Origin: Mesostigma viride
Lineage: Eukaryota; Streptophyta; Mesostigmatophyceae; Mesostigmatales; Mesostigmataceae
DNA length: 64,000 bases
NCBI GenBank assembly: GCA_009746045.1
Contig: RPFO01000229.1
Span: forward strand, 120,001 to 184,000
Reading direction: 5' to 3'
Positions 494 through 44,470 of this stretch are shown piece after piece. A program made the translations under genes and the position numbers. The notes beneath the pieces were generated by a model. That model was not told where the DNA came from. It did no database searches and worked only from the letters and a program-made list of their open reading frames with translations. Position 1 is the first letter of the stretch. Every line of letters begins with the position of its first letter.

Positions 494-3400
494 ATGGAGC
501 AGCTTGATGAGTTTCTTCCATCCCTTTTGTTGGATGAGATGCCTAGGGCGACGTCGGCCCCTCCCCAGTTGGACGACCTTCAGAAGGTCTACGCGGCGGA
601 GTTAGTCCAAAGCTCGGGGGGGGGCAACTACATGAACCTGGTACGTATCCAGGATGGCATCCACCCCTCCATGGATGTCAGATGCGACGCCGATTACGAG
701 CTGTTTTACAAGGAATTCAGCGGCACACGCAAGCTTCCTCGGCCAATGAACCCTCGCACTTTGTACACGGAGCTGCCCTACCGATTCCTGGAAAACAAAG
801 CCAATGCCACGCGCGCCGAGGTGGGCAACGACGGGTATTTCTATGGCGATAGCGAGCAGGCGAGCGGCGAGGATGACAAGGGCTCCTACCCGGCCGACGA
901 CCAAGGGTTGCCCAATGCGCTGGCCAGGATGTCGCTCGCAGCGGACGGCTCGATTCAGCCCGATGCATCCCACTCCCCGCCCGTGGGCGACTACGGCTTC
1001 TCCCCCTCCCAAACCATCCCTGAGGGCTCCCCCCCAAGGGTCCAGCCCCGCCAGCAAACGCCCTCGCCACCCCCGGCCCTCGCCCAGCCCCCTCCCAGCC
1101 TCCAGCTCCTCCAGCAGCTTGGTCGGCCGTCGCTGGACCTCCTTCAACGGGAGCAACGGTCCAGCTGGGCCCCTTCTAGCTCGATCGCGCGCGCACAGCT
1201 TGCGCAAGCGGCCGCCGCCGCGGCCTCATCTGGTGAGGACCTAGCGACTTTCCTCGCGCATCGGCCCATGCGCATGTCGGACTCGATGACAGCTCGATCG
1301 GGCCGGTTGTCCGACTCTGCGGGGTCGTCTGGCCACCCGCCCCGCCCGACGCGTTTCTCGGATTCCGCTGGTTCGCGCGGGATCGCTCTCGCGCCAAACG
1401 CCGACGGTTCTGGTGTTGGCCGCTACGCCCCCCTCTCGTCATCCTCGCTGATGTCATCGTCGTCGCAGGCCCACCAGCTGGGGGTCCTTTCGCGCGAGGG
1501 GTACACGGCGCTGTACAACAACCTCGCATCGCTCAACCCGCAGCAGCAACGTCGGCTCATGGAGCAGCTCAAGAGCGCAGAGGGTACCGAGTACGCCATG
1601 TCGCTCGCAGCGGCCGCTGCCGCTGCCGTCACCGGGGTGGCCACGCCGCCGGGCCCCGCGTCGCGCAGCCCCGATCCCACCATCCGGGGCGGGAACGCAT
1701 TGCACTCGAACCGAAGCAGTGTGAGTAGCAGTACGGGCACCGGGAGCGGACCCGGCTCGAGCCCTGGATTAGGGGCAGGCGGGGCGGGGATGTCCGCCGG
1801 GGGGGCGGTAGGCATGGTTGGAGGCTCGATCGGGCATCACCACCTGCACAGCAACGGCGTGGTGGGTGGTGGGGGGATCAGCAATGGCGGGTATGGCACC
1901 GTGGGTGCGTCGCCAGACCGCGAGCGCCGCACGAGTGTGGGGCAACGGGGCGTCCCCCCCAGTGAGATGCAAGCATTATGGTCGCAGCCGCGGAACGTCC
2001 AGCCATTGCCGCAGCAGCCGCAGCCGCTGGCATCCCCGCCGGCACCTCCCCCGCAGCAGCAAATGCTGCCATCGTCACCGGCCATGTCGCAGCCATTGGG
2101 ACCCCCAGGGGGGATCTCCCCGGCCCTGACACCACAGCAGCTGCTCCTCCACCAGCAGCAGCAGCAGCAGCAGCAGCACCTGTTGCAGCAGCAGCAGCAG
2201 ATGCTGCTCTTGCAGCAGCAGCACCAGCAGCTGCAGCAGCTGCAGGAATTCATCAAGCAGCAGCAACTCTCGGCCGCCGCCATGTCGCCATTTGGTGGCG
2301 GTTTCACGTCGCACCCGGGCATGGGCGCGCACATGCAGGGGATGCCGACACCCCCAATTGTCGCGTCCCCCCCAGCGCCACCTCCCATGGTGGCCCCTGG
2401 GGTCGGAGTCGCTCAGCCTCTGGTCGGGGTGTGCAAGATGTTCGCGACACAGGGGTACTGTGCCATGGGTGCCGCGTGCTCGCTTCCCCATATCCCCCTC
2501 TCACAGATTCTCCCGCTGTTTGCGCCAATGGTCGCGCCGCCACCAAACGCTGCCACGCTCGCGACCGCCGCCGGAATGTCGCCACCCATGGGCGACGTCT
2601 TGGGCGGCGACATGGCCATGCATGGCCTCCCGGGCAAGGGGGGGGCTATGTGGGGGTCGGCATGGGCAGTCCCGGTGCCGGCATGTCGTCCGGCGGGGGT
2701 GGCCATAAGCGTTCCTCGGGAAGCAACCAGGGAGGACAGGCCTACGGGGGCCTCTCACCTCAGACGATCTCCTCCGGGGCTGACTCGGCCCCCCATCATC
2801 ACCAGGGGTCGAAACACGCCGGGCCGTCATCGTCGATCAACGCGGCAGCAGCGGCCGCGGGGGCTGCAGGGGCCACCCCCGGGGGTGGGGCCGCCTCGTC
2901 CTCATCTTCGGGCCGGCGTAGCAAGTCGGGCCGGCGCAAGAGCGGCAGCACGGGAGCGGAGGGGGGTGACGGGGGGAAGCAGAACGGCGAGGGCAAGGGC
3001 GGGGCGGTCAGCAGTGCAAAGTACATCTCGCTTGAGGACGTGCAGGTGGGTGTGCTGGGTCTGGTGTGGATTTTTGATTAAGTCACTTGGGTTGAGAGCC
3101 GCATCTGGTTAGGTCCCTTTTTTACTTTTCCCTTTTTTCCCTTTCTTTCCCTTTTTTCTCTTTTCCCTTTCTGGTTTGATTTCCGATTTTTCCTGGTTTA
3201 ATTTCCTAGCTTTTTTATTCCCGTCTTCATCGTTTCTTTTTCCCTTTTTTCCCTTCTTTCATTTCGTTGTTGGTTTGTCCCCATGGGCCCACCGGCCACC
3301 GGCCGCGTTTCACAGACCAGCATGAGCCCACAATACCGCTGTCGTATTGAACCCCACTTGTCTGCATGCGATGTCGGTTTTCTTCCAGCAACCTTGAGGG

Positions 3401-6400
3401 CAACATCATCAGATCCCAAAAACCTTACAAGACCAATGTTTTCTATCCCATCACGCCTGCACCACGCCACGCACTTGTCTGCATGCAGTCCCCTGTTCTA
3501 TGCTGCCATTCTCCACAGGGCCGCATACCCTTCTAGAGCACCAAGGACCAGCACATGATATTAGATATTATGTTTGCTTTATTTATGGCAGTCATGAATC
3601 GTAGTGCAATCAACCATTGTTTTCTATCAGGCCTGAACCACACTACTCTGCGTGCACTCTCACTGTCTGCTTCATGTATCTCAACTCTCTTCCATCAAAA
3701 ACTATCTTGTCTTTCATTACTATTTCTTCCCCCGAAAAATTCCCACAGGGCCGCATCTACCAGATCGCAAAGGACCAGCATGGCTGCCGCTTCCTCCAGA
3801 AAAAGTTTGATGAGGGCGGGGAGCGCGAGGTGGAGATCATTTTCCGGGAGATTGTGGACCACGTGGTGGAGCTGATGACCGACCCCTTCGGCAACTACCT
3901 GGTGCAGAAGCTGCTGCTCTGCTGCAACGCGAGCCAGCGGCACGAGGTGCTGCTGCAGGTGTGCGGCGCGGGCGAGCTCATCAACATCTCCCTCGACATG
4001 CACGGGTGAGTGCTGGGGATGTTTATGGATATACGTCCAACCTTTAATGTTGCACAGTGAGCTAATTACTCTAGCTCATCAACATCTCCCTCGACATGCA
4101 CGGGGGAGTGCTGGGGATGTTTATGGATATACGTCCAACCTTTAATGTTGCACAGTGAGCTAATTACTCTAGCTCATCAACATCTCGCTCGACATGCACA
4201 GGTGAGTGCTGGTATTCATTTGCCTGCTACCTGTGCGTTGTGGTGGGGAAAAAACATGGTCTCGTTGGCTCATTTGCTCATCAGCGTATCGCTGTGGATA
4301 TGCACGGGTGGTTCGGGTTGGGCTTGGTCGGGGCCACTCTGTATCGCAACGAATGCTGGGCAAGCATGCTGCCATCATCATCCTGCTCGACAATGTTGCT
4401 ATCATCATCCTGCTCGACAATGTTGCTATCATCATCCTGCTCGACAATGCTGCTATCATCATCCTGCTCGACAATGTTGCTATCATCATCTTCTATACAG
4501 GGTTCGCAGTTTTAAACAAGCTGTCTACCTTTTGCCCCGTTCCTGCCCCTCCTCTTTGCCTCCTTTCCCCTTTCTCTCCTTTCCTTCACCCCCTTTTCCA
4601 TCGCTTCCTTTTACTTGCCACCCCGCCACCCTCTTCCCCCTTCATCTCGATGCTGGCCCTATCAACGTTTTCTCCCCCCCTCGTTGGCCTTCTACCGTGT
4701 TGCTACTTGCCATCTCCGTCCCCCCCTCCTGGCATTGCCCTTCCCCCTTTCCCCCACCCTACCCTCTCCCCCCGACCCTTTCACCACGGTGCTTCTCCCC
4801 CCCTTTCCCCCGCCCAACTCACTGCATCATTCCCCCGACTCATTACATCTTCCCCCCCCACTCTCTCCGTCTTCCTTCCCCCCCCCCTCGTCACGTCCCC
4901 CCCCACTCGTTACACCTGCCAGCACGCGCGCGGTCCAACGTCTTGTGGAGACGCTCAGCCCCGGCGAGCAGACGCGCATGGTCATCCGCGCGCTGCGCCC
5001 CGGCGTGGTCACACTCATCAAGGACCTGAACGGGAACCATGTCATCCAGCGGTGCCTGCAGACCCTCTCGCCCCAGGACTCGGGGGTATGCTACCCCGCT
5101 AGCATGTCACGAGCTAATCCCTGTTGTTGTCGCCTTGTCGCCACGCCTTGTCTTGCCGATAATGATGGCCGGTTTGTCTTGCCGATAGCTGGGGGCTCTA
5201 ATATGTGCCATACCGCGTCATCTAGTGTGTCTGCTGACGCTTGCAGCCGCTGCAGGACTTGGGGAGCATGTCTTCCTCACATGAGCTTTGCCGTGATGAA
5301 CATGATCATTAGGGGCTTATTACAAGACGTGGTGTGTGGAAATTCCTTTTCACATGCTCCGCCCCTCTCACACACCGCCACCCCTCACCACCCACACCCC
5401 ACCATCGCATATTTTAACCGGCTGCAATCTCTTTAGCCAACCTTCTCTTTACCTGCCCTCGTTTGCTCGCAACATTTTCACGGGTGCTTTGCGAAGCCAT
5501 GGAATGTCTGGCCTACCTCGCGTGCCTTCTTCCCCAACCTCCAATCTGCCCTTTGATCACGTGGCAGCGCTTTTTATGTCTCTGACTTCATGCTTTTTGC
5601 GCCGCTCCCCAACCATTCCCCCCCCCAAGCCCCCCAACCCCGCACCACCAGTTCATCTTTGTCGTGGCAATCTGTGAACCAACATGCCCTCATTGCTGAT
5701 GTACGGCCTCCCCCACGTGCCTTCGTTCCCAACCTCCAATCAATTCATCTTTGACGCGGCAGCGCATATGTATTTACTTATTTATTTATCTATCTAATTC
5801 CCAACCCCTTACACCACCAGTTCATCTTTGACGCGGCCGCCGCCCACTGCGTCGAGATCAGCACGCACCGCCACGGCTGCTGCGTGCTCCAGCGCTGCGT
5901 TGATCACGCGACGGGTGCCGAGCAGCAGCGGCTACTGCAGCAGATTGCGGCCAACGCTCTGGTGCTGGCCCAGGACCCGTTTGGGTGAGTGGTGTGGCTA
6001 CCCTCTATGAGTAGTTGCCAAGGCGAGGTGTGAGGTGGTAGAAAGAAGCAGCGGGTGCTGCAGGAGATTGCGGCAAATGCGCTGGTGCTGGCGCAGGACC
6101 GGTTCAGGTGAGTGGGGTGGGGTGGGTGTTGGGCGTTGGGTCACTGGGGGAGGTAAGTAATTTTGTAATTGTTATTAGGTCATTGATAGGCCACAAATAG
6201 GTCACAAATAGGTCATTAAAAGGTCATTAACAGGTCATTAATAGGATTGCGGCATTGCATGTGTTGGCACACAACCTCTTTGGTTGCATAACTGACTGCC
6301 CGTGTCCGTGTTCCGGGTTCAAGAGGAGGCGAACCGCTTGTGCAATACCCTGGTGCAGGGGGTTTTGAGTTGGTTAGACTACAGCTATTAGTTGCTGGTG

Positions 6401-7946
6401 CAGGCCCGCTGGTGGTGCAGGGCCACTGCTGCTTAGAAACACCGGCGTATGGTTTTGTGGAAGTTTGATCTGGACATGGAGATTAACACTGGCATGCCCC
6501 CCCCCCCCCCCAGCCTTCCTCTCCGTTGCTGCATAGGCTTCTTGAGGGTCACTGTCCAAGGGATCGGACGTTATTGATCTAGGCTTCCCCTTCCACCCCG
6601 CTTTCTCCAGGTATTCATATCTTTGTGATATATGTCCTGTGGTACCTCGGCCTCACCTGCCCCTTGGTCACAATCCATGACCTCGCCCCCCCCCCCCCGC
6701 CCCCCCTCTTCCGCAGCAACTACGTGGTCCAGTACATCCTCGACCTGCGCCTGCCCTGGATCTCGTACGAGGTCATGCGGCGGCTGGAGGGCCACTACCC
6801 GTTCCTGGCGACCCAGAAGTTCTCTTCCAACGTGGTCGAGAAGTGCGTGAAGCTGGCGTCCGACGAGGGCAGCCGCAGCCGGCTGGTGCACGAGCTGGCG
6901 ACGTCCCCCCGCCTCGGCTACCTCCTGCACGACCCCTATGCCAACTACGTGATCCAGAGCTGCTTGGCGACCACGCAGGTGAGGAGGGGGCGGAAGTGTA
7001 ATCAGCCCCTATCCAGGCAGCCCATCGAATGGAAGCCCAGCTGCTTTTTTATAGGGGTCGCTTTGAGAAGTGGTAGGGGAGGGAGGTGATGATTGGGTAT
7101 GGGTGACACGTCTTGAAAGTTTTCTTTTGTGTGGGAGCTTTCTGGTTTGTGGGAGTTTTTGGGGGGGGCGGGGAGCTTTTGTTTTGTGCGGGAGCTTTAT
7201 ATTTTGTTTTGGAGGAATTTGGTCTCGTGGAAGCTTTTTGTTTTCATGTGGGACACCGGGTGACAAGGGTTACATACGTATGTGGTCGCTCTCACAACTT
7301 TTCTTTTGTGTTGTCTATCAACATGGCAAGCACACGCACACAAGGAACAGCTAAGACAGGATCAGTGACCCAAATCTGCCCATGAAACTTGTCTTGTTTT
7401 GCAACACTTCGCGCCATACGTTCAGTTCCCGTCTTCGCTGGCTTGGTCTGCTGCGACGCTCGACCGTTGAGATTGGGTAGCTCTCATTCTCACGAGGAGA
7501 TGCCGTAGGATCACCCCCCACCCCACGCGTAATAGTATCCTGTTTGGGTCCCATCTCCTAGACTCCCGTTTATTTCCTTTTGCTCTTCCTCTTTTTTCTC
7601 TTTCTGAGTCGGGTTTCCCTATTCCGTTCCCTTTTGTGGCACTGCCCACAATCTGTGATTCCACCCCCACGCGCACCCGCACCCCACCGCCAACGTGATA
7701 ATCCCCATCGTGATTGCCAACCCTTCTCCCCTCGTTCGGCGGGGTCTTTTGTACTGTGAACCCTGAAAGCAAATTTTTGTTTTCATGACTACCCTGTTCA
7801 CGACCGCTGAAACAACTCACGGCGCGCAGGGCCCCACCCATGCGGAGCTCGTCGAAGCCATCCGGCCGCACCTCCCTGCGATCAAGAACTCACTCTACGG
7901 CAAGCGCATCATCGCACGCACCAACATGAAGGCCAGCTTCAAGTAA
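494..7946 (+). CDS. Pumilio/PUF RNA-binding protein with CCCH zinc finger (six exons)
   Basis: Proposed exons are 494-3045, 3749-4005, 4923-5085, 5821-5984, 6717-6978 and 7830-7946 (stop TAA); every intron is GT-AG and phases agree. About 1,171 residues if the G8 break is corrected. The long N-terminal half is low complexity (Ser, Pro, Gly, a polyQ block near 2150-2275). It carries a CCCH finger with spacing C-x8-C-x5-C-x3-H at codons 647, 656, 662 and 666. Exons 2-6 encode eight PUF repeats followed by a short C-terminal tail. Base-reading residues by repeat 1-8 are CR..Q, NY..Q, TR..Q, NH..Q, CC..Q, NY..Q, SN..E, NY..Q. By the known PUF code these read 5'-UGUAUAUA-3', the classical PUF element; TR in repeat 3 is slightly non-canonical. 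Family members bind 3'UTRs in the cytoplasm and repress or destabilise mRNAs. The added CCCH finger is uncommon. Target mRNAs cannot be told from the sequence. Confidence 0.95.
2638..2645 (+). other. Homopolymer frame break in PUF exon 1
   Basis: A run of eight G separates two reading frames of exon 1. Upstream, the frame carries the N-terminus and CCCH finger. Downstream, the good frame (Gly/Ser-rich, then Lys/Arg-rich, reaching the splice donor at 3046 in phase 0) is offset by one base. Nine G would join them. The uncorrected frame ends at 3112 inside intron 1. A homopolymer sequencing error is the simplest reading; a true null allele or a tiny unrecognised intron are alternatives. Confidence 0.75.
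3285..3560 (+). repeat. Decayed copies of the exon-2 acceptor region in PUF intron 1
   Basis: The true exon 2 begins after cccacag at 3749 with ggccgcat and, a little later, aaggaccagca. A copy at 3512-3557 reads tccacag, ggccgcat and then aaggaccagca. A weaker one at about 3298-3325 has ggccgc and agaccagcatg. Sequence upstream of the copies also repeats: accaatgttttctatc at 3433 and accattgttttctatc at 3615. A segment spanning the acceptor was therefore duplicated in tandem and has since drifted. Confidence 0.7.
3975..4312 (+). repeat. 98-bp tandem repeat spanning the exon-2 donor of PUF
   Basis: The segment starting agctcatcaacatctc at 3975 contains the end of exon 2 and its donor. It recurs at 4073 and 4171, a period of exactly 98 bp. 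Copy 2 has lost the donor GT (ggggga in place of gggtga); copy 3 keeps a GTGAG. A fourth, diverged copy of the exon edge lies at about 4275-4312. Confidence 0.9.
4369..4493 (+). repeat. 27-bp tandem repeat in PUF intron 2
   Basis: Four to five units of a 27-bp sequence containing atcatcctgctcgacaatg. The unit aligns to the exon-2 edge (catcaacatctccctcgacatg region) with about 19 of 23 positions matching. It looks like a second-order amplification of the same exon-edge sequence. There is no sign it is coding. Confidence 0.8.
5520..5776 (+). repeat. Decayed copies of the exon-4 acceptor region in PUF intron 3
   Basis: True exon 4 starts at 5821 after caccaccag with ttcatctttgacgcggc. Copies lie at about 5545-5575 (ccctttgatcacgtggcagcg), 5645-5670 (accaccagttcatctttgtc) and 5737-5765 (aattcatctttgacgcggca). 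The flanking text cccaacctccaatc repeats about 197 bp apart. These are serial duplications of the intron end plus exon start. Confidence 0.75.
6049..6295 (+). repeat. Decayed copies of the exon-4 donor region in PUF intron 4
   Basis: The last ~60 bases of exon 4 (cagcag...attgcggccaacgctctggtgctggcc...) and the donor gtgagtgg are repeated at 6049-6117. There the copy still translates similarly (IAANALVLAQ shared) and keeps a GTGAGTGG. A weaker copy starts at about 6244 (attgcggcattgcatgtgttgg). The first copy could still act as an alternative donor. Confidence 0.85.
7122..7250 (+). repeat. T/G-rich short tandem repeat in PUF intron 5
   Basis: Repeated units of the form tttTTGTG(T/C)GGGAGCTTT, several copies of about 30-35 bp. 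Low complexity; no function visible. Confidence 0.6.
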
Positions 7947-8075
7947 GGAGCACCAGCATGAAGGCCAACTTCAAGTAAGGAGCACCAGCATGAAGGCCAG
8001 CCTTCAATAAGCACCAACGGGAAGGCCAGCCTCCAGTAAGGAGCACAATTGCGAAAGCCAGCCTTTCGAAGCGCC
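7917..8075 (+). repeat. Tandem copies of the PUF terminal codons in the 3' flank
   Basis: The end of the coding sequence (gcaccaacatgaaggccagcttcaagtaa, in two parts) is followed by three to four imperfect copies of about 35 bp. Each contains gcaccancatgaaggcca or a drifted form, and the first two keep the taa. They lie in the 3'UTR or flank. Confidence 0.88.
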
Positions 8076-11000
8076 GGCTGCAACGCCGCTAACCCGAGTT
8101 GTGGCTTACTCTTTTGGCACTGGCCGTGGCGGCGCCAGCGGGTAGCGTACCAACCTGTTATGGCGCCAAAAATTGACATGGCGCTGGTCGTTGAGGCTCC
8201 AGCCTCCGATAAGGCCGTGGCTCGTGTGGTTCCTGGTACTCGTGGACCCCCAGATTGCAAGCCTTGTACAACTGGAAGTCCGGATACCTGTGGTCGGGGT
8301 CATCCAATCAGGGCGCCTAGGATCTGGCTGAGGGAAGAGGTGCGGGAGGCGGGAGTGTGCTGGGTGAAGTGCCCGCCACCAAGGCCTGTCTGTCTGTCCA
8401 GCCTCCGGCACACCCCTGGGTGGGTGGCCGTCGCCCACAGCAGCGAACAACTGTCATCCCCAAGGTCCCTGGTCCCCCCCCCCGGCAGCGCGCCTGAGAT
8501 GCCCAGGGCTCCTCTGTGGGGGTGGCGGCAACCATTTTGCTATTCGCGCTTTTGAGCATTACAGTAGAGCATGATAGTAGAGCATCATAGAGCACTACAT
8601 AGCACTGTAGAGCGCTCTAGGTAGCGCTCTTATGTGTGTATATGTCTACCTATATGTCTATCTATGTAGAGAGCGTGGCGTGCCCTCACGTGCAGTTGGC
8701 GGCCGTTCGGCACCTCGGTCAGACTTGCCGGGGTGCGGGGAGGCTTTCTTCTTCGTCTTCTTTTTTTGTCAAGCTTTTGATGAAGTGGGCAGACCGTGTT
8801 GGATCGGGCGGGTTGCGTGGGGGTGGCATGGGGGGGAGTTTGCCCGGGATGGTGTCGGGATGCGTGGGAGGTGGGAAGCAAATGGGTAGTTTTGCCCGGG
8901 GTGCTAAATGGTAGTTCTGCCCGGGGTGCTAAATGGTAGTTCTGCCCGGGGTGCTAATGGGTGGCTGTTGGAGGCTTCTGGCGGGGTGGGTGGGGGCATT
9001 GCCAGGGCAGACTTCCCAACGTTACCTCGGTGCATTCGGGTTGTCTTGCTGCCACTGCCACGTGTACGGCTGTTGTGGATGTGGAAAGGCTTCACTCCAG
9101 TGGCTGGTGGCAAATACACAACGGGCGGGTGGCAGACTCATGTGGACTTTGGTTGGAGCGAGTGCTGGGACGGGGAGCCGACTCGACTAGGAAGCGCGCA
9201 AGGGGAGCTGGCATACTTCTTGCGGTGTAGGGTTGTAACGAGTACCCTAATGGAGCGCAAGCGGTCAGTTACAGGAGTGCCAGGGAGGTCATGGGAAGAC
9301 CGGCTGCCAGCTGCTTGTAAATGGCCAACACTTTCTTTACCCAGTGGCTGGGCTCCCTAGCCATGCTTCAAGCCTCAAGGATGCTCCAAGCATGCTCCAA
9401 GGATGCTCCAAGCCGAGGGCCGCTTACACTGTCTCGGCTGAATGGTCATCCCAACCATGTGGTCGGGTGACCTGTGGGGGGTCAACCCATGGGGGATAAA
9501 TGAGGGGGGGTCAAATGATTGGATATAGCCTGTAATTGGCCAGCTACGAACCTTGACGGGTTGCCAGGTGATTAATCATCGGATGCCAGCTAATGCCAGG
9601 CGAGAGATGGCCTGGGTTGAGAGATGCGGCGGCGACTGATTTGGGTGGCCCTGCCCGGTGGCTGTTTTCAGACCGTGAGGACAGCCGGCCCGGAGTGTCT
9701 TGCGGCAGTTATTTACGGGGGGGTTCTTTCAGCGCCGCGCGCCTCCCAGGCATGCTGTTACCTGGTGGCTGCACATGCAGGCTGTAAACTCGTGCTCGTA
9801 TGGGGAGGCAGTTACCTGGTGGCCGTACAGGCAGGTGGTCCGCAACTGCGGGTCCTGCGCCGACTCCCCTAGCGTGACCAGCTCACTGAGTACCAGGCCA
9901 CGTGTGCAAGTATATCCTGTTGTGATGCAGCTGTCAAGCAGCCCGTTTTGCCATGTGTCATGCTGCTGTCGAGCAGCTTGTTTGGCCACGTGCAGAAGAG
10001 TGTTCAGTGATGGCGGTTTTGGAGACCCCGACGGCAGCAACCGCAGATGATCCGCAGCAAGTGCCCGGCGGGAGTCGGCAAGAGGCCACCGTTGCAGCAA
10101 CACGTGCCTGAATGCGCCAAAGGGTGCTGTGTGGGAGTGCCGTTGTGCGGGGTAGGGATGCCATCCGTGTTCTTACGGCCAGCATTTCGGAATGTCTTGT
10201 GGCCTTCGGAACAGTCAGCGTTTCGGGCCGTATTTCAGCGCCTTTTGAGCTTTCCTGGAGGGCGTTCCGGGCTGCCTGTGGGACCTGCCCCAACAGTGGC
10301 CTGACAAGAAAGGAAGTGGGAACTAAAGGTTGGCGGGGGGTGGGGTGGGGTGGGGGATTTGGGGGGATTGGGGGAAGGGTTGCGCATGTGCTTACAAGGA
10401 GTGAAGGCAGGCAAGCGGCTGGGAGTAAGGGCGAGGGGAGTCGCAAAGATGATGGCCTACCGGGTTTGATGGGCATCCTGTGCTCTCCTTGCCTGATAGG
10501 GCCCCCTCTCTCCTCTTGGGATTGCGACGCCCAAGCCAGCTGGACGGGCAGGCCTAATGAGGTGTGTGTTGGGGAGGGGGGGAGGTGCGGGGGGGGGGGA
10601 TAGGGATTAGGTGGCAGCATCCAGCAGCTTCGGAGTCGGCTTCCGGTGAGGACAACCCATGCCGGTTCTGACGCGGGGATGGCCGTGCCAGTCCTACAGG
10701 GGAAGCGCACCATTCCTGTGGGCAGTGCAGGGCCTGCGCGGCGTGCAAGCAGGCCAGCGTGTGCGCTCTACGGTGGGCATGGCGGACAGGAGCGAGGGTT
10801 GCATCGCCGGGTGAGCGAAGGTGGGGGCCGTGGGTGAGGGGATGAGGGGGCCGTTTGGGGGAGGAAGCGGGAGAAAGGGGACGGCGTGGTGACGGAGTGG
10901 TGTGTCGGCGCCTTGTCACTGTCATCGCCATCCTTTGCTGCTGCGACGGAAATGTACCTGTTGACCTCCCAGGGTGGCGACAAAAACACGGCCGCAAGGT

Positions 11001-11960: not shown

Positions 11961-11966
11961 ACTACC

Positions 11967-25541: not shown

Positions 25542-26504
25542 TCACTTCAGACTGTAACCAGGGTTCATCAACCCATACAAGACCTGGTATTGTGGTCCTG
25601 CTGCTTGTGGCACCTTGGTCAGTGCATCTGCAGCATTGTCTTTGTCCCTGACGTGGGCTTTAGACTCCAGGTACTTGCATTCCTGTTTTAGCACAATCCA
25701 ATCCAGGTCCGAGTGTACAGCCAAAGGATTGGCAAGGAAAGAGATGATAGATTGAGAGTCAGTCAGCAAATGTGCTTTCACTCCTGCAGAGCTACCAGCC
25801 TGGTGTTGAAGCCAGACCAGCAAGTGATTGAGATACCTTGCATGCAAGACAGAAGATACCACAGCCCTGCATTCAGCTACATTGCTACTCACAGCTTTCC
25901 TCTTGTGCAATCTACTGAACCAGGAGACTAGTGACTTCTTCCCACCTTGGTTATGCAGGAAAAACAATCCAGCCTCTCTGGCTTGAACCTTGGTAACTAC
26001 CCTGGACTCCATTGAACTATCCATCATGCACGTGATGTGAATGGGAGTAAACAGGTCCAGTGAGTGAAGCATCAAAGGTGGACCATCATGCAACAACTGC
26101 TTGATTGCCCGTGCTCCTACCTCCTGTAGTACCTCATCATCTACCCTGCTCACAAAAGCCAGGTGGGGTGCACATGTAGCACATAGCCAACCAAGCTTGC
26201 CTCTAATGGTAGGGCACATGTCAGGGGTGATGTGAACAGGCAGGACATCCAGACAAGACTTAATGTATTCAGCAGAGGCCTGCATGGAACAAACCCAGCT
26301 GCCCTGCTGCTGCAGCAACTCAAGCATCATGCCACAGAACTTGACTGGCTCCTTGCCCAGCTCTAGCTGCTTGCCAATCTCAAAACTGGCAGACACCTGA
26401 GCTATGAAAGCATCCACTGCAGCTCTAGGACCTGAGATTAACTGATCATCCCCATGCCAGACAAACATCATCATTCCATCAGGGTGTGGGATGACAAACA
26501 GCAA
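25542..26504 (-). CDS. copia-like pol: RT C-terminus and RNase H
   Basis: About 320 codons. The frame opens with FVIPHPDGMMMFVWHGDDQL, where HGDD replaces the usual YVDD of copia RT. It continues through RT thumb sequence to RNase H (TCMMDSSMESR, SSNVAECRAV, LLTDSQSI and DNAADALTK), all typical copia-type RNase H. It lies one base out of frame with the preceding segment at 26471-26504. The expected DPCLF sequence there is restored by one extra base, so this is a one-base deletion, a sequence error, or less likely programmed frameshifting. Confidence 0.85.
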   Translation of the reverse strand: MLFVIPHPDGMMMFVWHGDDQLISGPRAAVDAFIAQVSASFEIGKQLELGKEPVKFCGMMLELLQQQGSWVCSMQASAEYIKSCLDVLPVHITPDMCPTIRGKLGWLCATCAPHLAFVSRVDDEVLQEVGARAIKQLLHDGPPLMLHSLDLFTPIHITCMMDSSMESRVVTKVQAREAGLFFLHNQGGKKSLVSWFSRLHKRKAVSSNVAECRAVVSSVLHARYLNHLLVWLQHQAGSSAGVKAHLLTDSQSIISFLANPLAVHSDLDWIVLKQECKYLESKAHVRDKDNAADALTKVPQAAGPQYQVLYGLMNPGYSLK

Positions 26505-26875
26505 GGGTCAATGTCATCATAGGTGGCCCCTAGCTTCATGAATACCTCCTGTGCAGACAGCCTAAAAATTTTTGGAGCTGACTGCAACCCTTCAACCCCC
26601 AGGTTTGGCCTCAACAAGGGTTGAACAATATCCCTGTGCCACACCTTAGGAGTATTCACCACGTATACCTGACCTCTCCAGACCTGCTGTGCTATGGCAG
26701 GGTCCCCCTTTAGAAAGGCTCTTTTGATATCTGTGGCTTTACACACATAATCCTTCCCTGTATTAAGCTGATGCAAAAACAAGGAAAGCAACACCTTGAG
26801 AGACGTTTGCTGAATACCAGGAGTATAAAGCTCAGCCTCTGTCAGCTCTGTAGAGCCCCTGAACTCAGTACACAT
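26471..26875 (-). CDS. copia-like pol: RT palm segment
   Basis: About 134 codons carrying TELTEAELYTPGIQQTSLKV and CKATDIKRAFLKGD, the copia RT block with the first catalytic Asp (TDIKRAFL). Frame-shifted relative to both neighbours by one base each, with about 34-nt overlaps. Part of one broken pol gene. Confidence 0.8.
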   Translation of the reverse strand: MCTEFRGSTELTEAELYTPGIQQTSLKVLLSLFLHQLNTGKDYVCKATDIKRAFLKGDPAIAQQVWRGQVYVVNTPKVWHRDIVQPLLRPNLGVEGLQSAPKIFRLSAQEVFMKLGATYDDIDPCCLSSHTLME

Positions 26876-31816: not shown

Positions 31817-31822
31817 TATTGG

Positions 31823-34687: not shown

Positions 34688-35054
34688 ACAGCTCCATGGA
34701 CTCCTCCTCGGCAGGAGGTGCCGAAGGTCCAGCCCCCGCCGCTGCAGCTGTTGGTGCGTAGGGAGGACCCCTCGGCCTGTTCACAACAGGCGTGGATCCC
34801 CTCCCCTGCGGATACAGGGGAACTCGCAGCACCGCGCTGCTGTACGAGCCCTCAGACAAGTGGCCCGACGAGGACGTTCCCGACGTCGACGGGTCAGCCT
34901 CCATGGACTGATCGAAGCTTCTCGCCGCCCGCTCAATCTCTGCCTGGGCGGCAATCTCCGAATCTGACGTCCCCGACGATGAGGATGTCGGAGAGCTAGA
35001 ACGGCTCCTTGGGTGCATCAGAGCCTTACCCTTGTTGTTGTTGGGGTTAGACAT
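34611..35054 (-). CDS. Gag N-terminus of the copia-like element
   Basis: Starts at ATG 35054-35052, about 105 bp inside the 5' LTR; begins MSNPNNNKGKAL, Ser/Pro/Ala-rich and acidic. The longer frame to 35255 would begin inside the LTR. Ends out of frame with the next gag segment. Confidence 0.6.
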   Translation of the reverse strand: MSNPNNNKGKALMHPRSRSSSPTSSSSGTSDSEIAAQAEIERAARSFDQSMEADPSTSGTSSSGHLSEGSYSSAVLRVPLYPQGRGSTPVVNRPRGPPYAPTAAAAGAGPSAPPAEEESMELYGLQPGSSAEEQDDARSRQVAADEG

Positions 35055-35159
35055 TTTTCCGAAAAAAAAACTGGAGGTAGAAGAATGGAATGGGTTGTTT
35101 TGTTCACGAAATGAACGCTCGTCGTCCTGTGTGTGTATGTTTTTGGAGTTTTTAATGCA

Positions 35160-35538
35160 AGTTATGCAACACGAAGCTTGGAATGCTCGGGCACTGCCAA
35201 ATGGCGAGAGTGTGCGTGAACGACGAGACACCTTGGCATTAGGATAATGTGGCACATATACTGCTTGGCAGCCGTCAACTATGGCTGGCCAGACTTTGCG
35301 TAAGTTAAACTAACTTACTGATCCTGGACGGACTAACCTATCAGTTACAACCTGATCTAGTCAGTCCTAACATGACAACTACAGTCCCGGTACTGAGGTA
35401 CCGGCTCATCACATACTGAGTACAGCCACGTGTCCATGCCACGACTACTCTAGTCCAGCACCGTCCCAGTACCCAATTGGGCGCCGGCGGTGCTGGCACG
35501 TGTCCACTTAGGCTACAGGCGGGAGACTTAGACTAACT
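35160..35538 (-). repeat. 5' LTR of the copia-like element
   Basis: 379 bp, two differences from the LTR at 24780-25158; should carry the element's promoter on the - strand. Confidence 0.95.
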
Positions 35539-35689
35539 ATCATGTTTAGCACGTCCACCAATTTTGGATATGAGCCATGTCATTAAGCCATAAACACATC
35601 ACCTTGAAATGACCGCTTTTTTTACATACAACATCAACAACAAGGTGCAATACACCACTGACAGGCTGTCACATGTCACCTGGCATCCA

Positions 35690-36995
35690 TGTACGCTCAC
35701 GTCACGACATCGGCATATCCCAGTTCTACATCTTTTGCGTTTCCCACCCATGCAGTCACCCACCCATGCAGCCAGCAGCCATGCACCTGAACACCTACCC
35801 ACCCACAAGACTAATACACTCACGCGCCTGGGCACCCAGCCACCCACCCGTCCACCCACCCACTGACCCACCTACCCAGCCAGCCATGCCCTTACTAACC
35901 CACCCTTTCTAACCACTGGTGCACCCGGGCACCCAGCCGCCTACCAATCCACTGGGACATCCACCCACCGAGCCCGCCACCCACCCACCCTAGTAGTAGA
36001 TAATAAGGAGGCATTCACCCATCCAATGTAGCCAGCCACCCAATCACCTAATCACCCAACCACCAAAGCACCCAACCACCTAACCACCCAGCCAACTGGC
36101 CCTATGTGCGCCTACCCGGCCTCCCACCCTTGACCCACCCACGCACCTTAACCCACTCAACCACTCCCTCCCCCCACACTCTTACCCACTGAACCACGCA
36201 CGCACGCATGCACTTTCTCAGCCAGCCACCCACCGGCCACCTATCTCACCCCCAACCTGCAGAGCCCTTCACTTGCGATACGTGAGTCGATCCCAACCAC
36301 ACATCCATCCACGCAATCATATCTGTGCGTCCAACCACCCATCTAACCACCTGTTCGCCCACCCACGCACTTCTCGTCACCTACACATCCACCGCTACCA
36401 ATTCCACTGATGCCTCACCCACCAACCCACCCGCATCGCTAACCATCCAATTAACCACTACCTAACCCACCACCCTCAAACCCATGCAAGTGTTTCATCC
36501 ACCCACTTAGAAGACCAACAAGTCCCCAAAGCATGTAAATCACCCAGCCACCTGGCCATTAACCTATAACCAACCACCCTTCCATTCATCCACCCACCAT
36601 AACCAGCCACCCAAATACTCACCCAGCCACCGTCTCCAACTGCCTGAGCTCCTAGCTCTGCCAGCCACTGACCCAGGCATTCACCTTTCAGCCAACCACC
36701 TGCCCAAGCCACCCACCTCTAGCCAGGCTTGCATTGAAGCATCTCGCCTGAGCCACCCACCCAATACTCCCCGGGCAACCAACTAAACAACTAATCAATC
36801 ACCCAGCCACACAACCACCTAACCTGCACCCAACACCCAACCACCCAAATACCTAACCACCTAACCACCCAACACCCAAACCAGCCTGGCATGTGCATGC
36901 CCGTTCGCCCTCGCACGTCTGCACCCTTGCAACCCCAATACACGCTCCACTCACCTTGCCAGCCAGTGCACGCCCAGCCAGCCACCTAGCTGCCC
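35690..36995 (+). repeat. Decayed CCCA/CCAN tandem repeat
   Basis: About 1.3 kb in which ccaccca, ccagcca and aaccacc motifs recur at 4-bp register with heavy substitution. Looks like an old version of the pure CCCA tract at 43716-43856. Not coding. Confidence 0.7.
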
Positions 36996-38322
36996 AACTT
37001 ACGCATGAAGGCAATCTTAGCCATGAATAACCTCACCTAGCGTCACTTGCAAAGTTGCATTGCCTGGGTACTTTGCATGTGGCAGTTTCCAACTTCTTGT
37101 GAACAACTGAAAAGGCTCTATCTTCGCGGTAATGAATTAGCAACAACGTTGGAATCGTTCTCCTTTCCCTCTTTAAGACAGGCTTTCAACAAGAAAGACA
37201 AGGGTAAATATCTGGATGCGGTGGCGATGATCAAAGCACAGTGCCCTTGAGAAAGTCTTATAAATCAGCTCTCTACCTTTTGAGAAGCTGTCTTGTGTTA
37301 GCAGCGATCCTGGGCCCTCTAGCTCGGCTAACCTCGCTTGATCTGTACTTCTTTATTGCCGCCGGTAGATGCGAAGCTTGAGCCCATCGTGTCGTGGGCG
37401 AGGTTATCTGCCCGACCCATCACACCTCCAAAACGCATTGCCGACTAATGAAAAAAGATGCCCCTCTTTTCCTTTTGTGCCTGGCGCTAAAAAAAAAATG
37501 AGCTCGCTTGGAAGACATTGTTGCAAAACGCTTCGTACAGGCATCATAAGCAGTTTTTTCGCAGCCTTTCCCACACATACCGCACATCCGGAAGACCATT
37601 AACGACTTTTGTGCGGAATCTTGGGCACGCCGTGTGTCCTGCCGGCTCACTGCCGCAGGCTGGGCATTATAGGAAGGTCGGGCACAGTCTAGAAATAGTT
37701 ATTTATCTGCCGACAAATATATGCATGGCATGAAGCAAAAACCAGACGGATTTTGCACCCCTTTTCACTAGTTCAGGGCGATCTTCATTTCTACTACTCA
37801 ACATGTCGCGAAAGTATGTGGTAGATATCCTCGAAACTACACACAAAAGCTATGGTTAAGAGGGTGCGACAAGTTATGCATCCTACATACTGAGTTCCCC
37901 TCGTGACGAAATATTGCATTCGCAGGTCAGAAATCTGCACTTGGCCGCGCGAACCCTGAAATTCATTTTACTAATAACCACCGCCAATCAGCCGACTAGA
38001 TTGCATGACAAAAAAATGGGATAAACTAACGAAGATGTGAAATAAAACAGTTATCCAAGCGCCCCTCCAATTTATGCGAGGCAATTTTTAGACTGCCGCA
38101 TTGAACCCGACAGCCACTGTTGGTGGCTGCCGCTGTCCCTAAATAATGTGCTAACTCACAACTCGACCGGAGGCCGGAGGGAATACGTCATACACTGTAA
38201 AGTGCAAACAAGTAACGTGCGTCGTAATTACAGGCGCGGGACTACAGGCGGAGCCAATTTTCGGAAGAACCGTTAGGTTCGCCAGAATTGGCGAAGCATA
38301 TAATAAGGCCGTTGTTGTTGTT
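36996..38322. other. Region without recognised genes
   Basis: A 67-codon frame (37047-37250) and others are unsupported. Nothing else recognised. Confidence 0.4.
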
Positions 38323-38330
38323 GTTGTGTC

Positions 38331-39136
38331 AGGAGGGGTGACATTGAGCCATGCAAGCGAAATAGGGGCCGGATCCTGCAGCCGCCGGTCCAGAATGTCT
38401 GGCCCCTATTTCCATACTAGGGGCCCGTGCAGCTACCGGCACCAATTCTAGCTAGCCCCCATCTTTTCGGCCCCTATAGGGGAGATTCCAGGGGCCGAAT
38501 TTTTATGCAGCCGCCAGCCCTAGATTTCGGGCCCCCATATTGTACTGTACAGCAGGCGCGGCATGCCGCATCATGCCACGTGGCGTCCCATCTTGCCATG
38601 CCCCGGATGCCAGCTATGTACGGGCCTACGGATGCCTACACAAAAAACTGTGTCGGCATCCGTCCTCACGCCGCGCCGCGCTATACTGTCATGCAGTCTG
38701 CAGATGTCTTGCCCAGTTCACTTCAGTTCAGTTCAGTTTAGTTGGAATCCCACGCCGGTCATATCCAACAGTCCAACAGAGATAGTTTTGCGACGTAAGT
38801 AGCTCGGATGGTAACCTTACTAGGGTACTGTGATATGTCTTGCCCAGTAATTGCCTGTCGCCGGAGAGGCATGCCGGCATCAAGCCACGTGGCGCCTCAT
38901 CTTGCCACGTGGTGTCGCATCTTGCCACGTGGTGCCGCATCTTGCCACGTGGTGCCGCAGCTCGGCCACGAAGCGCTGCGCTATTGGGGGCCAGTAATAC
39001 GGGGCCACCGCCGCCGACCCTCGTTTTACTCGCCAGCCCCTATTTCAATTCAGGGGCCGGCGCTTACCGCAGCAGTCAGGCCCTGGGACGGGCCCCTAGT
39101 ATCCAGGAAATTTTGCCTGGAGATGTCACCCCTCCT
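38331..39136. mobile_element. hAT-like non-autonomous DNA element, 806 bp
   Basis: Inverted ends AGGAGGGGTGACAT, exact over 14 bp, and an 8-bp target duplication gttgtgtc at 38323-38330 and 39137-39144. The interior has GGCCCC/GGGGCC repeats and a tandem gcatcttgccacgtggtg repeat (38892-38960). No transposase. Confidence 0.8.
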
Positions 39137-39144
39137 GTTGTGTC

Positions 39145-40441
39145 CCACGCGGCCACGCCGCACATGGGCAGCAGAGAATCTATAGTGGCCGTACACGTGA
39201 GAAAATGTTTCGAGATGCGGTTTTTCGGGTGTACCTGTCAGTCGGGCCGTTCGATTCGACATCTGACGGTCTGGAATTTACAAGTCTCTTTTCCGGTGAA
39301 ATGGGTGTTTTTTTATTTCCATATACCAGTTAAGTTAACCCAGGTGTGCCACAAATAGCCAAAAGTTACCTAGTTGTGCCTCAATTGGGGTGCCCGCATT
39401 AATAAGGTGCGCCCTGCGACCATGAATGGTCTGGAATTTACAAGACGTCTGTTCAATCGATCGGGAGAGGGGAGCATTCTCGCAAACAGCCAGCTAGGAC
39501 CTACACAGGACGGTGTAGGACCGTCCGCAACAGCCTGTATAAAGTCTTCAAAGGCCTTGGCTACCGGAGGCTACTTGGTCAACGGCGTTCATGCGCGGAC
39601 GCGCCAACACGCACACGGCGCGGGTCCCAAATCTCTGCTGCCCATGTGCGGCGTGGGCAAAAACAACAACAACAACAACAACGGCGCGGGCGCCACGGCT
39701 GACATCATGAGCGCTCAGCGTCATGTTGCCACGTTGTGCCATTATTCTGGACTATCGGGGTGGCATCACCGGGGCCAGGATTCCTGATTCGTGGATGCAT
39801 CCACACTTTCTGCCAGGATATATGCCACTCCTTCACTTCCTCTAGTCCTGCCACGCCTAACCGGAAAAAAATTTCAGCCTCAAACCCTGCTCAAACTCTT
39901 GACCACATGCCCTAAAACCGTTCTGACTCTCTCAGTTAGTATTCTCGACATCGTACTATTGACGGAAGATTGATGTTGACGTTACGTCTGGTCTGCGGTT
40001 TGAAAAATGTCCGTTCTCCTGTCCGGCCAAATTCTAAGATACCACCTGGATGCCAGGCAAAATTTTGCAAAACCTTGCAACATTTCATCGTCACTTTGAA
40101 AGCGATCTTATCACTTAACGGCTGACGCCAAAAAGTTCTTCATCCAGCCGTCAAACCCTTGGAAACTTGTTCAATCCGACGATTCTTGGGCGCCGCGATC
40201 GCCGGGTCATTGGACAGACTGGGGCGGCGGGATGTGGAGGTCCTAGCACGACACAAGCATGGCATAGCATGGCATCGGGATTAAACGTTTTACGCGTTGC
40301 TCGTACCCGTGGGCCGTCGGCAACAGCTAGGCAAGCTCGCAGCGCACTGGGGAATTCCAAGCGAATTGCGGTGACAAGTTGAATTTGCATTCGCAGTTCT
40401 GATAAGAAGACGGCACCCCTTAGCGCATTGCAAGTGGAGTC
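39145..40441. other. Upstream region of the ZIP transporter gene
   Basis: ggtctggaatttacaag occurs twice (39269, 39429). A 137-codon frame at 39374-39787 has no recognised domain and includes an Asn run from a caa repeat. A TAG at 40421-40423, in frame with the ATG at 40442, bounds the ZIP start. No promoter motif recognised. Confidence 0.45.
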
Positions 40442-43400
40442 ATGGAGGCGATCGGGAGGAAGAAGCTAGGATCGCCCCAACCTGCGGGCAGATTCAGCGG
40501 GGTTGCTTCCTGCACCCGGCTGATGCTGTTCTTTCTGCTCGCGGTCAACCTATTGGGGGGCGCCTGGGAGGCGAGCGGTCACAATGGGCCGATGTTTGCT
40601 CATTTCGACCTGGACGGTGATGGCCTGCTCAATATGATGGAGGCCGAGCTGTTCATGGCGAGCGTGGTCGCTGATCCCGCGAGCCTGGCCGCCTGCCCCA
40701 ATGCCTCGTCCATCGTGCTTGCCCGCGACGGAGATGGGGACCTACGCCTGAACGCGAGGGAGGTCGAAGGGATGTCCTGGGACGTCCTGCAGTGCATCCA
40801 TGACGCCGGCGCCATTTGCTCCGCCACTGCGACGGTGAGCACGAGCGCGGGTTCCTACGCGTGCGCCGCCGAGCACGAGGAGGAGCACGAGGAGGAGGAG
40901 CACGCGGACGAGCACGAGGAGGAGGAGCACGCGGACGAGCACGGTCACGCTGAGGAGGAGACAGAGACCATGCTCACGTTCCCCGGCCCCGCGGCCACCA
41001 CGTGGCACTGCGAGCTCGCGGAGGACGAGCACGAGGAGGCCGCTCCTCTCAACAGTTCCCCCGCCGAGCGCTGGGGGCTGGGCATCCTGGCCGCCGTGGT
41101 CGTGTCCGTCATCTCCCTGGTGGGAATCTTTCTTGTCAGCTTCGACATGCTCTCGGTCCCTCACCTCACCGATTACATGGGCGCCCTCGCCGTGGGCGCG
41201 ATCATCGCATCCGTCTTCCTGCACATGCTCCCCGAGGCCGCCGTGGGGGACAAGGACGGCCGCTTCGCGTGGCGCACGGGCACCAGCATCATGGGAGGGC
41301 TCATGACGGCCTACCTGCTCGAATCGGTCGTGCGGACCACGCGCGTGGTCATGGGTTTCCAAGCGCACGAGCATCCTGGCCACGAATGCCACGATTCTGC
41401 GGGAGCCAGCATTTGCAACCGTGACGTCACCGTCCCCGCGTTGGTGTATGCCCCTTCTGCGGAGCCCATCCCTGGGGTAGGCGTCCCCGTGACCCACCCA
41501 AGTCTCGTGAAAGAGATTGATGACGGCCCTTGCTGTGACCATGCCCCCGAGCGGCTGGTCATGCCGCCCACGATGGCCGTTGCCGCCGCCGCCGCCGTCA
41601 CCGCCGCCCCGGTGGATCTAAATGTAGTCGCGGGGGATGGCGCGGCGGTGGAGCTCAAGAGCGCTTGTCTCGCAGGCGACAGCAGTAAATTTTCCAGGGA
41701 CGGGGCCCTCCAGGTGGCGGCGGTCGCTAGCCCTGCCACCGTGGTGGCCGTGCAGCAGCCCGCAGCGGCCCTCGGTCACGGCCATGCGCATGGGGGGCTG
41801 CGCCGGGCGGGGCGTCCCAGCCTCAAGCGTCGCGTGAGCCAAAAGTTCCTGTCAACGGAGTCCGTGGTGTTTGTCATCCTGCTGGGTGACTTTGTGCACA
41901 ACGTGGTGGACGGGCTCGTTATCGGCGCGTCCTTCTCGGTGCGTGATACTGTAAATAGTAGCATGGATGACTAATAGATAGTAACACTGATTGTAGCACT
42001 GGTAATGTTTAGAGGAAGCATGATAAATGGTGCATCAGGCTCTAAATAGGGATAGTAACACTAATGACAATACAGATAACGTTTAGAGGAAGCATCATTC
42101 TTGGCGTGTGGTACGATAAATAAGCAAAGGTAGTGTGATCATCATAACAGTGTAACCATGTTTCGAGGAAGCGTCGTTCCCGGTGCGTGGTGATATTAGG
42201 AGCAGTAACAGCTCTAGTAAAAACGTTAATAACGTGTACAGGAAATGTTTGTCCTCTATGCACGCTTGTATCGTGCCAGCGCTTTGTCAAGGAGGGTAGT
42301 TGGGTTTTGTGGCACGGCATTCTCGGTGCGTGTCCATGGGTTGAGAGGAAGCCGTGGAGGTAGAACGGATGTGGGCTATGGGGGGGGGGGGGTTGAGTGT
42401 TCTGGTTGTTGATAGACTTGTAGTAGTCTGGGTTCAAGAGAAGTAGTCTTGGTTTCAAAGAGATTATTGTTTGGATGGTTTGTGCTTTTTGTTCTTTCCT
42501 TCCTCTTCTCGTTGTGTCCAGCGTGTCTGGTTTGCGCGTCCTTTACTCAGCTCTTGGCGGCAACAAACAAGGCTCGTTTTTGCAAACATCCTTCTACACA
42601 CTGGCTGCCAACAAAGGTGCTGACATCAACCTTCTGCGTGTTTTTGTTCCTTGGCATGCTTCTTGCTGTCTGCTTCCTCTATCTATCTTTCTATCAACTT
42701 TCTATATATGTTTCTATCAAGTTTTTTTTTAATCTATCTTTCTATCAACTTTCTAACTCTCTCTCTGTCAACTTTCTGTCTATCTTTGCTGCCATGTGAT
42801 TCTATGTTTTGGGGGGAGTGGCTGTGGTATTTGGGGGCTGTGTCCTGTTTGCGGGGTCGCGCACTATGTTTGGAACGGTGTGCTCGTTTGGGTGTGGTTC
42901 ACGTTCTATTTTTGGTTCCGGCTTGCAGCTCTGCGATACCTCGGCGGGCTGGTCCATCACGTTCGCCACAGTTCTCCACGAGGTGCCGCAGGAGCTGTCC
43001 GACTTCATCGTGCTGCGCCGTGCGGGGCTCTCGGTCTTCTCGGCGCTGGCACTGAACCTGGCGTCCGCAAGCAGCTGCATCATTGGCGCCATCGCTGGGC
43101 TTGGGACCGCCAAGATCTCTGAGTCGACGCAGTCTGTGCTGATCGCCTACTGCGCGGTAGGTGGTGATTATCATTTTAATGATAGTACTTATAATAGTAA
43201 GCATTATAGTTGACGTCCGTGCTGATCGCCTACTGCGCTGGAGGTTGAGAATTCAATAAGGATAATGGAATGGTAGGCTTGGTAGTCAGTCTGTTCTGAT
43301 CGCCTACTGCAGTGATCGAAATAATAATAACATTAATATGGATGAATTGAATATTAGGAAGTATTTTAGGTGGAGCAGTCCGTCATCATTGCTTACTGCA

Positions 43401-44310
43401 CCGTATGAGTTGAAAAACTAATAGTAACAATGTCGTGCCCCCCCCCCCCCCCCCCCCTTTTTCTCTATCTTATGGAAGTCTCCCATAATGAAGTTGAGAC
43501 TGCAATCCTTATCCTAAGCGACCACACCAGGAATGTGGTTGTCACCTGAGCTTAATGAGTTCCTGTCTTCTCCGCTCCCCTTCCCCCCCCCCCCCCTGTC
43601 AACGCAGCGCCCCAACCCACTGCCAATGAAATGCTCAATTCACCCCCCTCACCCCCCTCCGGCAGGCGGACCCGCTGCTAACAAAATGGCAAAGGCCCAT
43701 CGCTTCACTTTACCCCACTCACCCACCCACCCACCCACCCACCCACCCACCCACCCACCCACCCACCCACCCACCCACCCACCCACCCACCCACCCACCC
43801 ACCCACCCACCCACCCACCCACCCACCCACCCACCCACCCACCCACCCACCCACCCACGCACGCACGCACACACGCACACGCCTTTCTCTTCAACCCCCT
43901 TCCCCTTCATCTCCCGGGCCCCGGGCTCTGCTCTCCCCTTCCCTTCTTTCGTTGCTCTTCTCTCGCCCCCCTTTATTTGTATATCTTCTCTCTTGTCGTC
44001 CTCTTCCCTTCGTATTTGTGTCTTGTCGTCCTCTTCGCTTTGTTTGTTTCTCATGTCTTCCTCTTCCCCTCGTTTGTGCCTCTCCGCTTCCCCCCCTCCC
44101 CCCCTGCAGGGCATCCTCGTCTTCGTGGCGATGGTCGACATCCTACCTGACCTGATGACAGTCTCCAACGTGCACGGCAAGTGGATGGCTACGGGCCACG
44201 TCATCAAGCGCTTCCTGCTCATCGTGGTGGGTGCGGCCGCGGTCGGCCTGACCACCATGCACGACAAGCACTGCGAGGCGCTGCACGGGGGGGCGCACGC
44301 GGGGCACTGA
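40442..44310 (+). CDS. ZIP-family metal transporter with EF-hand pair (three exons)
   Basis: Exons 40442-41938, 42929-43156, 44110-44310; GT-AG, all phase 0; 641 residues. Residues ~27-46 form a signal peptide. Two EF-hand loops follow: D56-D58-D60...E67 and D96-D98-D100...E107. Next is a His/Glu-rich stretch (~154-173) as in LIV-1-type ZIPs. TM1 ~211-233, TM2 ~246-266 (HMLPEA), TM3 ~281-298, then a variable cytosolic loop with HGHAHG. TM4 has HNVVDGLVIGASF, TM5 HEVPQELSDF; exon 3 completes the membrane region (FVAMVDILPDL). His/Asp/Glu in TM4-TM5 form the metal site of the family. Predicted to move Zn or related divalent metal into the cytosol from outside or an organelle. The EF-hand fusion suggests Ca-dependent control of transport (inference). 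Confidence 0.93.
41939..42340 (+). repeat. Decayed copies of the exon-1 donor region in ZIP intron 1
   Basis: The exon edge gcgtccttctcg plus donor gtgcgtgata is echoed at about 42090-42120 (gaagcatcattcttggcgtgtggta), 42170-42195 (gaagcgtcgttcccggtgcgtggt) and 42315-42335 (ggcattctcggtgcgtgtc). The sequence between (agtaacact..., gtttagaggaagc) repeats with a period near 90 bp. The last two copies keep GTGCGTG donors. Confidence 0.75.
43212..43410 (+). repeat. Decayed copies of the exon-2 donor region in ZIP intron 2
   Basis: The exon edge cagtctgtgctgatcgcctactgcgcg (donor at 43157) recurs at 43212-43240, 43288-43312 and 43376-43402, each 80-90 bp apart and progressively less similar. All contain a form of ctgatcgcctactgc. 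The donor GT is lost in copies 1 and 2. Confidence 0.9.
43438..43459 (+). repeat. Poly-C run
   Basis: About 20 consecutive C in ZIP intron 2; length is unlikely to be reliable. Confidence 0.8.
43716..43860 (+). repeat. (CCCA)n microsatellite in ZIP intron 2
   Basis: About 35 pure CCCA units then CGCA/CACA variants. Open frames through it (PTHP or WVGG repeats) are artefacts of the 4-bp period. Confidence 0.95.
43985..44090 (+). repeat. Pyrimidine-rich tandem repeat before ZIP exon 3
   Basis: Three units of about 30-36 bp containing cttgtcgtcctcttc. It may serve as an extended polypyrimidine tract for the acceptor at 44109. Confidence 0.65.
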
Positions 44311-44319
44311 TCCGGTCAA

Positions 44320-44470
44320 GGGGGGGGGGGGGGGGGGGCGCAACCAATGGCGTCAAGCTGATCCGGAGTCAAGCCTGTCGGCTGCACGCGTGTGTGGCTA
44401 TCTATACCCACTGCCCCGCATGCCGGGGCGGTGACAGGCACTGCGAGGCGCTGCACGTGGCAAGGGAGTT
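44320..44470 (+). repeat. Copy of the ZIP terminal codons in the 3' flank
   Basis: gcactgcgaggcgctgcacg of the last exon (44268-44287) recurs at 44439-44458. tgatccgg at the stop codon recurs near 44359. The same behaviour is seen after the PUF stop. A 16-17 base G run lies at about 44322-44338. Confidence 0.7.

Follow-up and report, generated by a model that had tools for sequence, protein, structure and literature searches.

Introner elements, in which one element is copied into many genes, and minisatellites, with their short tandem duplication mutations, are familiar sources of added or repeated sequence. In tandem genomic duplication, a general model of intron gain (PMC3443670), a duplicated unit that contains AGGT or extends over an exon-intron boundary leaves one copy to be spliced out; a single case across such a boundary is described in the potato RdRp gene (PMC4974935). 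Regional tandem duplication of coding sequence beside splice sites is also described from Drosophila, in connection with intron sliding and exonic duplication (PMC2891723). For the streptophyte alga Mesostigma viride, whose genome was published as 442 Mb in 2363 scaffolds with a mean intron of 1141.9 base pairs (bp), long introns have been linked to repetitive elements, which occupy 30.1% of intron space (PMC6947507). Here we describe a 64,000-nucleotide (nt) stretch (the window) of a 440-Mb M. viride assembly of 2243 contigs, in which two genes, encoding a Pumilio (PUF) protein and a ZIP zinc transporter, carry copies of their own exon edges ("echoes") within their introns. Such copies recur in other sampled genes of the genome, with a bias towards the donor side.

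The exon-edge copies are DNA-level tandem duplications, mostly of 30-200 bp. A single event fits tandem genomic duplication (PMC4974935, PMC3443670), although the initial annotation of this DNA knew of no named mechanism. The outcome differs, however: there a new intron arises, in potato by acceptor-side duplication, whereas here existing introns seem to gain serial copies, mostly at the donor, and the genes examined in this one genome gave no sign of intron gain. Similarly, the Drosophila duplications yield novel intron positions, whereas these copies lie inside introns. Unit length, array growth and decay are those of minisatellites, but the copies are denser at intron 5' ends in the Mesostigma genome. 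A genome search with window positions 3000-5000, in which common words were skipped, gave no other full-length match. Full-text searches of open PMC papers brought up no account of exon-edge copies forming a donor-biased series on the scale of a genome; subscription literature lay mostly outside this search, and novelty is not proven.

Within the window, 45 exon and 12 intron bases from each edge were aligned against the intron adjoining it. Seven introns were modelled (five in Pumilio, two in ZIP; all GT-AG, 703-990 bp). An own-intron copy was found at 5/7 donor edges (scores 41, 18, 39, 16 and 26.5) and 2/7 acceptor edges (25 and 22), with shuffled targets averaging 8-10. Scores at the remaining edges were weak or at chance level, and neither side of Pumilio intron 5 had an echo. 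Iterated search of the window introns revealed serial copies, listed here with the genes.

3749-4005, 4923-5085, 5821-5984, 6717-6978 and 7830-7946 (+), exons 2-6 of the Pumilio (PUF) gene, whose first exon ends at 3045; stop TAA at 7944-7946
3508-3553 (+), echo of Pumilio exon 2 start and acceptor in intron 1; 37/42 identical, score 25; a weaker second copy at 3397-3420
4073-4128, 4171-4212 and 4276-4317 (+), three echoes of Pumilio exon 2 end and donor; 55/56, 40/42 and 32/40 identical
5212-5276 (+), echo of Pumilio exon 3 end and donor; 47/59 identical, score 19
5633-5668 and 5726-5763 (+), echoes of Pumilio exon 4 start and acceptor; 33/36 and 34/38 identical; a weak one at 5391-5425
6044-6120 and 6245-6286 (+), echoes of Pumilio exon 4 end and donor; 65/77 and 32/42 identical
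7947-8060 (+), tandem copies of the Pumilio last codons and stop; Tandem Repeats Finder (TRF) array 7918-8046; scores 27.5 and 30
40442-41938, 42929-43156 and 44110-44310 (+), ZIP zinc-transporter gene, spliced frame; stop TGA at 44308-44310
42092-42126, 42171-42204 and 42311-42332 (+), echoes of ZIP exon 1 end and donor; scores 15.5-17.5, z 4.6
43208-43255, 43287-43310 and 43370-43413 (+), echoes of ZIP exon 2 end and donor; 41/48, 23/24 and 32/44 identical
44433-44460 (+), copy, downstream of the stop, of sequence from near the ZIP C-terminus; 26/28 identical

The first exon 2 donor echo of Pumilio belongs to a 98-bp tandem unit (TRF array 3975-4212), and the ZIP exon 1 echoes are the weakest of the window donor cases. 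The initial annotation had reported copies of exon edges in the introns of both genes, ordered by decay, and repeats of the final codons after each stop. The core of this description is real, but not every edge is echoed; the order by decay holds in Pumilio introns 2 and 4 but fails in the ZIP introns and at the intron 3 acceptor; and the repeats after the stop exist in both window genes but had no counterpart in other genes, of the Cpn60/TCP-1 family (0/6; 2/8 in total).

Two further samples were drawn from the genome, the genes being picked by family only. From 58 exon matches to Cpn60/TCP-1, 7 CCT gene loci with 49 introns were taken. CCT exons were placed from profile matches plus human CCT fragments. 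Edges off GT/AG were shifted onto the best such site no more than 9 bases away, so GT-AG in all 49 introns is partly by construction. Kinesins contributed 129 matches and 7 compact loci, a choice that favours short introns; where the far end of a kinesin intron was not known, a limit was set instead. PF00227 (11 matches), which yielded few split genes, was left out. At an own-intron score of at least 16, CCT genes had matches at 13/49 donors and 2/49 acceptors, which supersedes a count from incomplete exon maps (14/37 and 4/37), and kinesins at 6/19 donors and 1/17 acceptors. Pooled, with the window genes excluded, 19/68 donors stand against 3/66 acceptors (p = 3e-4; p = 3e-5 and 2e-3 at thresholds 15 and 18). 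When the same queries were aligned against introns of other genes, 7/2740 CCT and 6/1370 kinesin donor pairs (13/4110 together) reached the threshold, as did 3/2740 and 2/1198 acceptor pairs. The copies share with introner elements the recurrent gain of intron sequence, but each resembles its own exon and only rarely an intron of another gene; no one sequence was found across introns of unrelated genes in these donor pairs.

Repeated local duplication across splice sites, as the initial annotation had proposed, is supported, recurring across the 7 CCT and 7 kinesin loci taken together, where own-intron matches are more frequent than in the mismatched exon-intron pairs. That it acts alike at donor and acceptor is not supported by the totals for window, CCT and kinesin genes (24/75 donors, 5/73 acceptors), and the donor bias is a new element relative to that account. 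Nor are introns with echoes longer, as had been suggested: their median is 736 bp (21 introns) versus 777 bp for those without (35 introns; p = 0.95).

A query slid along the introns of the window and CCT genes gave a positional profile. The local-copy rate was highest at the donor (21/54, 39%), fell to 15-28% across the 220 bases that follow and was 14-19% at +240 to +300; before the acceptor it was 6-16% from 300 to 60 bases, and 12% at the acceptor itself. Exon windows at least 80 bases upstream of the donor or at least 40 downstream of the acceptor had no local copies. Among the 47 of 70 introns that were long enough, the first 250 nt had more local copies than the last 250 nt (0.31 vs 0.16, p = 0.011), a contrast that may come in part from arrays grown out of donor duplications. 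Apparent clustering of exon penetration at ~31 nt was largely an artefact of the 12-intron-base query. With longer intron parts in the query, penetration spans 6-68 nt (23 donors); since 13/588 mismatched pairs reach score 15 in this control, ~1 of the 23 donors may be chance.

The copies hold unspliced exon plus intron sequence and hence derive from DNA (or unspliced RNA), not from mRNA. Edge-echo periods are 40-299 bp, 18/20 being under 200. Young copies are plain tandem repeats: the unit measures 98 bp in Pumilio intron 2, 40 bp in CCT-theta, and ~70 and 97 bp in kinesins, and one further locus (L016) has several copies of a 96-bp unit; older copies have lost strict adjacency. The youngest are identical at 35/35 positions (kinesin locus L027) and at 55/56 (Pumilio exon 2 donor). 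Across 15 donor edges, exon-part mismatches by codon position 1/2/3 number 33/36/71, a bias to be expected if the exon changes silently and the copy changes anywhere; the coding constraint expected of mutually exclusive or alternative exon duplication is not seen in these counts. Judged from such identities, the copies look as though they decay neutrally. Matched copies in the echo cases sit well inside the intron and not at its opposite end. Separately, at one kinesin intron (L027, reverse strand, 1091-1951) the exon sequence leading up to the donor, GGTCGCACAG, resembles the intron sequence leading up to the acceptor, GGCCGCACAG; the likeness is that of intron-flanking direct repeats and was seen in this one intron.

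Local duplication is not confined to exon edges. Seven random loci had a local copy within 300 bp in 356/3156 windows (1-27% by locus), with periods indistinguishable from those of the edge echoes (90 vs 20 periods; Kolmogorov-Smirnov p = 0.25). Within exons 7/697 windows had such a copy, and Pumilio exon 1, which is repetitive, accounts for 5 of the 7. Two CCT-theta copies on different contigs (L019 and L020) differ at 87 mismatches in 4172 aligned bases (2.1%) and by 10 indels of at least 3 bp, of which one is a tandem duplication of 43 bp and several others are shorter and duplication-like; both copies share a donor duplication of 40 bp. Short tandem duplication thus appears to be ongoing and polymorphic, as judged from the 43-bp case in this one pair of alleles or paralogues. 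The pair also differs in the intron at L019 3003-7089, which is ~4.1 kb against ~0.9 kb in L020 and contains a ~3.1-kb insertion. A kinesin found twice with equal exon scores and near-equal intron lengths (G000:C2:6330541-6334132 and G000:C622:17695-21288) may, by these matches, represent a second duplicated or two-allele region.

We consider it probable that these observations reflect serial tandem duplication enriched in the donor zone, with the first donor kept in use and the copies decaying neutrally. Short segments, mostly of 30-200 bp, would be duplicated tandemly and repeatedly in non-coding sequence, ~3-fold more often around intron 5' ends than elsewhere, a factor taken from a simulation fit. 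When a unit spans the donor, the 5'-most (outermost) donor would presumably stay in use, leaving the protein unchanged, and the second copy of exon end, donor and intron start would turn into intron. The copies would then decay neutrally beside a conserved exon, some arrays would expand inside the intron, and duplications within exons would presumably be purged.

The closest competitor to the donor-zone account is local tandem duplication at a uniform rate combined with selection, in which donor copies are seen since the exon copy is conserved and acceptor-spanning copies are purged. Local duplication does occur in the window and at random loci, and within exons it is nearly absent, with 2/508 windows outside two long first exons. 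We simulated it forward, letting duplications arise at one rate throughout, holding exons conserved and tolerating copies at both edges. The 3/66 acceptors of the independent genes fall below the simulated level (p = 0.004-0.14 for expectations of 0.16-0.09), which agrees with purging, and the purging of spurious signals for 3' splicing has been documented elsewhere, in species other than this one (PMC10946897). However, the simulation yields 0.09-0.16 at donor edges when mid-intron values are 0.13-0.22, and the 19/68 donors, in genes outside the discovery set, exceed this (p = 6e-6 to 0.009). Exon conservation was already included, and as the sole cause of the donor peak it is ruled out because the uniform simulation places mid-intron above the edges. 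With a threefold hot zone around the donor, the simulated values (donors 0.26, acceptors 0.09, mid-intron 0.15) come near those observed. We therefore regard the uniform process as unlikely.

It is very unlikely that the echoes are functional, with selection maintaining them as 5' splice sites, whether alternative or backup, or as alternative exon ends. The competing splice sites envisaged in the initial annotation are physically present, with GT retained in 21/27 crossing copies and a full donor consensus in several, but 18.8 would be expected from copy identity alone. No significant signal of selection on the echo sites emerged from site versus flank identity across 31 crossing copies (0.86 at the splice site vs 0.82-0.84 in flanks; p = 0.22 against the intron flank) or from GT identity (0.90, p = 0.14), and codon positions 1 and 2 mutate freely. 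It is more improbable still that the tandem copies are false, the product of long reads that were collapsed or wrongly joined in assembly. The near-identity of the youngest copies would suit such an artefact, and Pumilio exon 1, with its possible homopolymer frameshift, suggests that some read errors remain, but the identity of 0.82-0.86 over the pooled crossing copies could hardly result from read errors, and the CCT-theta donor duplication is present in two separate contigs.

Several observations weigh against donor-zone duplication in the simple form simulated. The profile windows at -40 and -20 before the acceptor rise to 18-22%. The hot-zone simulation predicts 0.16 at -60 and 0.11 at -80 in the exon, against 1/46 and 0/40 observed, and exon penetration is at most 40 nt in 25/29 cases, against 38% in the simulation (median 50 nt). 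This shallow penetration places the units mainly on the intron side and, together with the overpredicted exon positions, implies that units are not random and that selection or a sharper hot spot is needed. The simulation parameters were set by hand, and introns that share a gene are only partly independent.

The cause of the hot zone is most likely linked to transcription, for example through R-loops on the G-rich intron start. Introns at 16 gene loci have on average a G-rich start (skew ~+0.23 over the first 150 nt) and a C-rich last ~150 nt, beyond the splice consensus, a polarity that suits an R-loop-linked cause. However, echo presence does not follow the G skew of individual introns (p = 0.74), and in random loci skew of either sign accompanies more local copies (8% at <0.1; 18% at 0.2-0.3), so part of the hot zone may be a matter of composition. 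A more specific proposal is that 5' splice sites become a duplication hot spot through transcription or through splicing coupled to it: nascent-RNA structures at the G-rich intron start, such as R-loops, or polymerase pausing at the donor would provoke the duplications, with units reaching mostly ≤~40 nt into the exon and the donor acting as a directional growth point of the intron. This proposal is tentative and on balance rather doubtful. If the donor bias extends genome-wide, it would constitute a measurable, directional, non-transposon source of intron sequence in one lineage, and the duplicated donors would form a natural set for testing how the spliceosome chooses between near-identical 5' splice sites.

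Both multi-exon genes of the window lie on the forward strand, and their exon ends were set by homology and splice consensus. The Pumilio spliced frame is unbroken from exon 2 onward, with GT-AG at every junction, and its protein, which looks plant-like, is matched by PF00806 (E 9.6e-71). In exon 1 the reading frame seems to shift at ~2638-2645, close to eight consecutive G, perhaps through a homopolymer error in the long reads. PF02535 matches the ZIP gene in exon 1 (E 1.8e-13) and across the exon 1 end and exons 2-3 (E 8.6e-29).

Transposon fragments and repeats surround and separate the two genes; window scans with Rfam (gathering thresholds) and ARAGORN gave no matches. Two similar open frames in opposite orientation, 48112-49437 (+, 441 amino acids) and 50053-51423 (-, 456 amino acids), presumably resemble ORF1 proteins of long interspersed nuclear elements (LINEs); a Pfam scan of the first product gave no match, and similar fragments occur at 17-19 kb and 63 kb. 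The segment 26842-28923 (-) has an integrase-core match (PF00665) below the curated cut-off, and we take it to be a piece of a copia-like retroelement; the adjoining frame 25542-26507 had no profile match. Positions 52740-55673 hold a ~2.9-kb degenerate tetranucleotide array, (AGTG)n passing into (GGGA)n-like sequence, with a G skew of 0.6-0.8.

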